Source: Desulfoscipio geothermicus
GTDB taxonomy: Bacteria; Bacillota; Desulfotomaculia; Desulfotomaculales; Desulfallaceae
Direction: 5' to 3'
DNA: 64,000 nt
Assembly (NCBI GenBank): GCA_016841205.1
Contig: JAENZP010000013.1
Coordinates: 31,231 to 95,230 of the forward strand
This document shows, in pieces, positions 12,974-13,293 of this stretch (positions are counted from its first letter, which is position 1; every line of letters begins with the position of its first letter). The notes below the pieces were generated by a model. The model was not told where the DNA came from and ran no database searches. It was given only the letters and a program-made list of their open reading frames with translations. Made by a program: the position numbers and the translations under genes.

Positions 12974-13014
12974 ATGCCGGGCAGACATTGAGAAAAGCAA
13001 AGCCAGCCCGGCAT
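12974..13014 (-). terminator. Terminator of the proximal Moco-type riboswitch
   Basis: Minus strand ATGCCGGGC...GCCCGGCAT followed by TACATTTTTGTG. Confidence 0.75.
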
Positions 13015-13017
13015 AAA

Positions 13018-13126
13018 TACCAAGTCCAACTCTCCTTCTCACAATGGAAGGCGCGATAGTTTCCCATCGAACCCTATGGCCAATAAACCATGACTGAATA
13101 GTTTTAGGTTATTTGGCTCAGAGAGC
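13018..13126 (-). promoter_or_regulatory. Moco-type riboswitch aptamer, proximal copy
   Basis: Minus strand CTCTGAGCC..ACCTAAA..CATGGTTTATTGGCCATAGGG..ATGGGAAACTATCGCGCCTTCCATTGTGAGAAGGAGA; aligns with the copy upstream of moeA. Confidence 0.75.
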
Positions 13127-13140
13127 ACCATATAAAATTA

Positions 13141-13180
13141 TAAAAAGCTTTGCCCCAATGCAAAAAAGGACAAAGCTTAA
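13141..13180 (-). terminator. Terminator of the distal Moco-type riboswitch
   Basis: Minus strand AAGCTTTGTCC...GGGGCAAAGCTTTTTATAATTTT. Confidence 0.75.
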
Positions 13181-13195
13181 CAACCAAGATAAAGC

Positions 13196-13293
13196 TAGAT
13201 TCCCCTTTCCGCAATGGGAGGCACACCGGTTTCCCCATGTACCCTATGGCCGGGCAACCATACCTTTGGTTTAGGTTACCAAACTCGGAGACA
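13196..13293 (-). promoter_or_regulatory. Moco-type riboswitch aptamer, distal copy
   Basis: Minus strand CTCCGAGTTTGGTAACCTAAACC..GGTATGGTTGCCCGGCCATAGGGTACATGGGGAAACCGGTGTGCCTCCCATTGCGGAAAGGGGAA. Confidence 0.75.

Follow-up and report, generated by a model that had tools for sequence, protein, structure and literature searches.

On the minus strand of the window (the whole 64-kb stretch of DNA analysed here, C2:31231-95230 of the 3.38-Mb genome G000, 36 contigs), the gene of a sigma-54 activator is preceded by two complete RF01055 aptamers in tandem. Such a double switch in front of a regulator is unusual, and it is conserved in four related bacteria. The aptamers, their terminators, the antiterminator complementarity and the conservation of these elements can be read directly from the sequences. 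We consider it fairly likely that the two aptamers, which both lack P3 and probably sense the same ligand, the tungsten cofactor (Wco), gate the activator gene via two successive termination decisions.

Tandem aptamers and the regulated gene

When the whole window was analysed by cmscan, we obtained exactly three Rfam matches above threshold, and all of them were RF01055 on the minus strand (Table 1). Aptamers C and B and the aptamer in the leader of a moeA-like gene span model positions 1-135, and the scores of aptamers C and B are about twice the Rfam cut-off (gathering score 36 bits), so that both copies are full-length members of the family. The earlier note had proposed two full riboswitches in series before a CBS/PAS sigma-54 activator, and it can be seen from Table 1 that this order (13302 down to 11182) is correct: aptamer C, terminator 1, aptamer B, terminator 2, activator gene in 5'-3' direction. 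Two complete aptamers with their own platforms and no intervening open reading frame precede a single gene, which is the pseudo-cooperative tandem layout. A rescan of the leader alone under lax Rfam conditions yielded nothing credible besides RF01055. Since the same leader was found in three other genomes, chance or artefact is an untenable explanation.

Table 1 Features of the tandem leader, the regulated gene and the moeA-like locus (positions in the window)
Feature	Position	Strand	Details
P1, putative main promoter	13367-13339	minus	TTGACT-17-TAATCT; ~37 nt upstream of aptamer C
Aptamer C, upstream RF01055 aptamer	13302-13186	minus	no P3; cmscan 65.3 bits, E 1.9e-13
Aptamer C 3' strand, antiterminator C	13218-13201	minus	alternative partner 13171-13153
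Terminator 1, intrinsic, switch C	13178-13142	minus	hairpin AAGCTTTGTCC..GGGGCAAAGCTT + TTTTT, -15.8 kcal/mol
P2, possible internal promoter	13164-13137	minus	TTTGCA-16-TATAAT; overlaps terminator 1; 10/12 consensus matches
Aptamer B, downstream RF01055 aptamer	13135-13016	minus	no P3; cmscan 73.0 bits, E 1.1e-15
Aptamer B 3' strand, antiterminator B	13046-13026	minus	alternative partner 13007-12986
Terminator 2, intrinsic, switch B	13014-12965	minus	hairpin ATGCCGGGC..GCCCGGCAT, -22.2 kcal/mol
CBS-PAS-AAA(GAFTGA)-Fis sigma-54 activator (PAS putative)	12912-11182	minus	576 aa, PrdR-like; PF00571, PF00158, PF25601, PF02954
Third RF01055 aptamer, moeA-like gene leader	63921-63802	minus	cmscan 56.8 bits, E 5.8e-11
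moeA-like gene behind third aptamer	61887-63710	minus	

The regulated gene codes for a transcription factor and not for a biosynthetic enzyme, as the earlier note had stated. The protein carries a CBS domain, a sigma-54 AAA domain (PF00158, 224 bits) and a Fis-type HTH (PF02954, 46.7 bits) according to Pfam, and GGAFTGA is present in the alignment of the activators. RpoN is encoded in the same genome (E 6e-62), and these data identify the protein as a sigma-54 enhancer-binding activator. Its PAS domain, for which Pfam gave no match, is a probable assignment based on position and on the PrdR-like layout. Just downstream of the activator gene (10887-11123), the window encodes a Nif11-type leader peptide (PF07862) that contains a GG motif, and a peptide-maturase-like radical SAM gene is located behind moeA at 60.7-61.8 kb.

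Terminators, antiterminators and proposed mechanism

Both terminators were missed by a simple terminator scan because their loops exceed the limit of that scan. The hairpin of terminator 1 is followed by the tail TTTTTATAATTTT, and the T tract of terminator 2 is interrupted (TTACATTTTTG). In both switches, the conserved 3' strand of the aptamer can alternatively pair with the loop and the upstream arm of the terminator (antiterminators C and B). When aptamer plus platform were folded in the ligand-free state, the unconstrained minimum-energy fold was the antiterminator for switch C (-59.7 vs -56.7 kcal/mol with the terminator forced) as well as for switch B (-61.6 vs -55.5 kcal/mol).

The duplex of antiterminator C is present in four genomes. 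For switch B, to whose platform family the moeA-leader switch also belongs, we aligned the platforms of 11 switches (activator leaders from five genomes, moeA leaders and others). Here, we found that the 20 pairs of antiterminator B are formed in 89% of the cells, compared with 40-52% when the partners were slid by 1-3 columns, and that 93% of the cells are paired in the stem of terminator 2. The changes in the antiterminator are one-sided (G-C to G-U and similar); compensatory changes were not seen in this alignment and the shuffled-column control was not exceeded. We therefore dropped covariation as an argument, and the support for the antiterminator consists of complementarity and conservation.

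Since the antiterminator uses a strand of the aptamer, ligand binding should favour termination, and each switch is predicted to act as an OFF switch in vivo. In the absence of ligand, the aptamer's 3' strand would pair with the loop and the upstream side of the next terminator, the terminator would be unable to close and transcription would proceed. Binding of the cofactor would stabilise the aptamer and hold its 3' strand, so that the terminator would close and transcription would halt. RNA polymerase would have to clear both decisions to reach the activator gene, and expression should therefore fall more steeply with the cofactor and leak less than with one switch. This steeper dose response and the common ligand would be expected for two aptamers that both lack P3.

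Physiologically, it makes no obvious sense to place the gene of an activator of cofactor-using enzymes under an OFF switch, and the same puzzle was raised for P3-lacking switches that control enzyme genes in 2008 (PMC2408646). Lowering of the activator by surplus cofactor could represent feedback, or the activator could turn on uptake or alternative enzymes under conditions of scarcity.

Promoters

The putative main promoter P1 lies within a block, CTTGAC(A/T)TTATTwTkrAAATACTTTAATCTATT, which on inspection by eye is kept in four genomes, and the DNA further upstream is largely unrelated. P1 itself was not recovered by a consensus promoter scan. Upstream of P1 (13545-13650, minus strand), there is a possible hairpin-rich segment without an Rfam match above the cut-off, and its fold is not clearly better than that of shuffled sequences (z -1.4).

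The possible internal promoter P2 suggests a partly parallel arrangement, in which RNA starting at P1 would meet both switches, and RNA starting from within terminator 1 would meet only switch B. The TATAAT of P2 is invariant in the four genomes and transcription from it would begin near the 5' edge of aptamer B. However, two of the four genomes have preserved neither the -35 element nor the 16-nt spacing, and the TATAAT doubles as part of the AT-rich terminator tail. We consider this two-promoter arrangement unlikely and prefer two decisions that are passed in series by RNA from P1.

Structural subtype and presumed ligand

In the alignments of aptamers C and B and of the moeA-leader aptamer, the P3 positions are gaps. 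All three RNAs are therefore probably of the Wco/Tuco structural type rather than of the Moco type, and the label "Moco-type" used in the earlier note is probably wrong. The published basis of this distinction is a correlation: the absence of P3 is associated with tungsten-cofactor genes and its presence with Moco genes, and direct ligand binding could not be demonstrated, as the authors stress (Regulski 2008, PMC2408646). The genomic context agrees with the P3-lacking subtype. The genome contains six AOR genes, and TupA-like and FDH-like genes are located behind P3-lacking switches (the TupA-like gene, recognised by sequence, behind the copy at C36:241975). Thus, the ligand of both aptamers is probably the tungsten cofactor (Wco/Tuco).

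In total, we counted 26 RF01055 copies in this genome, and 24 of them lack P3. The two P3-bearing copies, recognised by sequence length and inspection, precede an NADH-linked FDH-like operon (C34:93381) and an AOR gene (C14:51685). There are 31 copies in the relative G002. For Syntrophomonas wolfei at least 15 copies have been reported, the highest number given in that study (PMC2408646), and this is exceeded by the genome of the window.

The earlier note had concluded from the two platforms that control is either tight or of the two-input type (Mo versus W cofactor). Tight control, in the sense of a steeper response, is what we expect as well. In a two-input device, one aptamer would bind Moco and the other Wco, and the activator would be made only when both cofactors are scarce. 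Such a device might be suspected since aptamers C and B are 68% identical and come from different lineages (C is close to a tupA-locus copy, B to the moeA leader) and since P3-bearing copies also exist in this genome. However, comparison of P3 does not split C from B: both aptamers lack it, they share the same conserved core, and the only published Moco/Tuco marker places them in one class (PMC2408646). For this reason we rejected the Mo/W two-input reading, to which we assign a very low probability, and retain two switches for one ligand, presumably Wco.

Conservation and origin of the tandem

Orthologs of the activator are found in G003 (89% identity), G002 (72%) and G004, which is Sporotomaculum syntrophicum FB (70%). 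In each of them, the gene is preceded by the same two aptamers and terminators, so that four genomes of the genus, including that of the window, carry the complete leader. In G011, which belongs to another genus, the arrangement is reduced: a strong aptamer at the position of B is intact, whereas the second one, about 270 nt further upstream, is weak (42.4 bits) and has no terminator. The G011 locus would be compatible with the idea that switch B alone is of importance, switch C being redundant or a relic, but this is improbable for the genus of the window, in which switch C scores 65-72 bits, keeps its terminator and antiterminator in four genomes and has accumulated substitutions between two sub-lineages.

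In the activator tree, the five aptamer-preceded activators and an aptamer-less copy from G014 form one clade (SH-aLRT 99), which is nested among activators without aptamers. From this topology it follows that riboswitch control of the activator was probably gained once. The tandem did not originate from a recent local duplication. Within the genus, orthologous C aptamers, and likewise orthologous B aptamers, are 86-97% identical to each other, which exceeds the identity between C and B, and the nearest relatives in the genome are different: a copy by the tupA locus for aptamer C (C36:240677, 83%) and the moeA leader for aptamer B, by aptamer identity (79%) and by platform. These different relatives and the different platforms indicate that two dissimilar switches were brought together in the tandem.

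Candidate targets of the activator

The most informative locus is that of G011, in which the activator gene adjoins a divergent TupA-like gene and is clustered with moeA, fdhD and the genes of a radical SAM protein and an AOR. The AOR operon has a perfect -24/-12 promoter (TTGGCACAATAATTGCT) and two upstream sites, TGTAAGAATATCTTCACA and TGTATGAAAATCTCTACA. About 7.6 kb away on the same contig, an FDH operon carries a near-identical set of promoter and sites. Before both sigma-54 promoters, the paired upstream sites (UAS) are spaced by about 73 bp. This pattern of UAS and sigma-54 promoter occurs at only these two places in G011 and is absent from the reversed control. AOR and FDH may thus be good candidate targets in G011. 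Similar TGTA-type sites precede genes beside related activators in two other genomes, and in two further relatives the activator is located beside a molybdopterin oxidoreductase gene. Two tandem cobalamin riboswitches (L096:10-654) were observed near the activator cluster of G011.

In the genome of the window, the pair of TGTAwGAAwATCTyyACA sites with a sigma-54 promoter was not found, including the surroundings of the tungsten genes. Here, the neighbours of the activator are not tungsten genes, and some tungsten enzymes are clustered with other sigma-54 activators. The upstream regions of AOR-661 in the genus contained no good sigma-54 site. A scan with the plain -24/-12 consensus was too noisy to be used alone (107 one-mismatch sites vs 58 in the reversed control). 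Extrapolated from one relative, the activator may drive tungsten enzymes (AOR, FDH) from sigma-54 promoters.

A conserved double site of another kind, TGTCnGnnATTTGAACATGTnTGTTTTTnnGACA, was seen together with -24/-12 promoters in five genomes (L225:643-3200, L219, L222-L224). It precedes genes of a molybdopterin oxidoreductase and of a 655-aa AOR, and at two of the loci a different sigma-54 activator is part of the cluster. Because of the different double site and the different clustered activator, we rejected these two enzymes as direct targets in the genome of the window.

RF01055 switches in related genomes and significance

Among the matches listed for 41 related genomes, there are 12 other tandem pairs within about 450 nt, and tandems are common in this order. 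Where the downstream genes were readable, these pairs precede TupA-like or molybdate transport, FDH-like and xanthine-dehydrogenase-like operons, MoeA and also large secreted proteins (gene identities were assigned by sequence, not by profile search). No sigma-54 activator was found among about 45 other RF01055-preceded genes listed or behind the 12 other tandem pairs. Several P3-lacking copies (L028, L024, L029 and L023 on C13, C33 and C24), in which CCTGTGG replaces CCTAAA, form a group of their own. The genes downstream of this subfamily often code for very large secreted proteins, in which fn3, RCC1, NHL, cohesin or dockerin-like domains occur. At one of these loci (L029, C24:74832-74953), there is an RF01055 aptamer with a good terminator and no convincing coding gene directly downstream.

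Known RF01055 switches are found in front of genes for biosynthesis, transport and enzymes. With a double switch on an activator gene, one RNA sensor would govern unlinked operons. We put forward, rather tentatively, a cascade from RNA to activator, in which the double termination gate would determine how strongly an entire tungsten-enzyme regulon is expressed from distant promoters. This would coordinate tungsten enzymes in syntrophic bacteria, in which their regulation is little studied. The isolate Sporotomaculum syntrophicum FB has the same leader and makes two P3-lacking aptamers accessible at one locus.

Comparison with known systems

Tandem RF01055 switches were described in 2008 for S. 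wolfei and Geobacter metallireducens (PMC2408646). In S. wolfei, three P3-lacking copies are arranged in series, the first two of them with terminators (PMC2408646; PMC9481103). A later survey reported 13 double and two triple arrangements of Moco and Wco riboswitches and termed them pseudo-cooperative (Sherlock 2022, PMC9481103). The leader described here belongs to the same RF01055 class and shares with the published tandems the two aptamer-terminator units and the presumed common ligand. In contrast, the published targets are genes of cofactor biosynthesis, transport, hydrogenase and arsenic response (PMC2408646; PMC9481103), and here the target is a sigma-54 activator. Tandem OFF switches for the same ligand are thus an already published architecture, and the new element is the regulator as target. 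In a limited literature search, we found no published description of RF01055 control of a sigma-54 activator.

On the protein side, PrdR (NF041552) is the best NCBIfam model. Residues 3-570 of the activator align to positions 7-574 of the 577 model positions, but the score of 429.8 bits is below the cut-off of 795, so that the activator is not PrdR itself. In Clostridiales, sigma-54 activators of tungsten and molybdenum genes have been described, namely AorR (aor-moaD) and MopR (mopR, mop, hyp-moeA) (PMC6615313). No riboswitch is mentioned for them in that paper. AorR is similar to what we predict for G011 in being a sigma-54 enhancer-binding protein with TGT-N(10-12)-ACA upstream sites and an AOR target (PMC6615313), and this likeness is one of type, sites and target.
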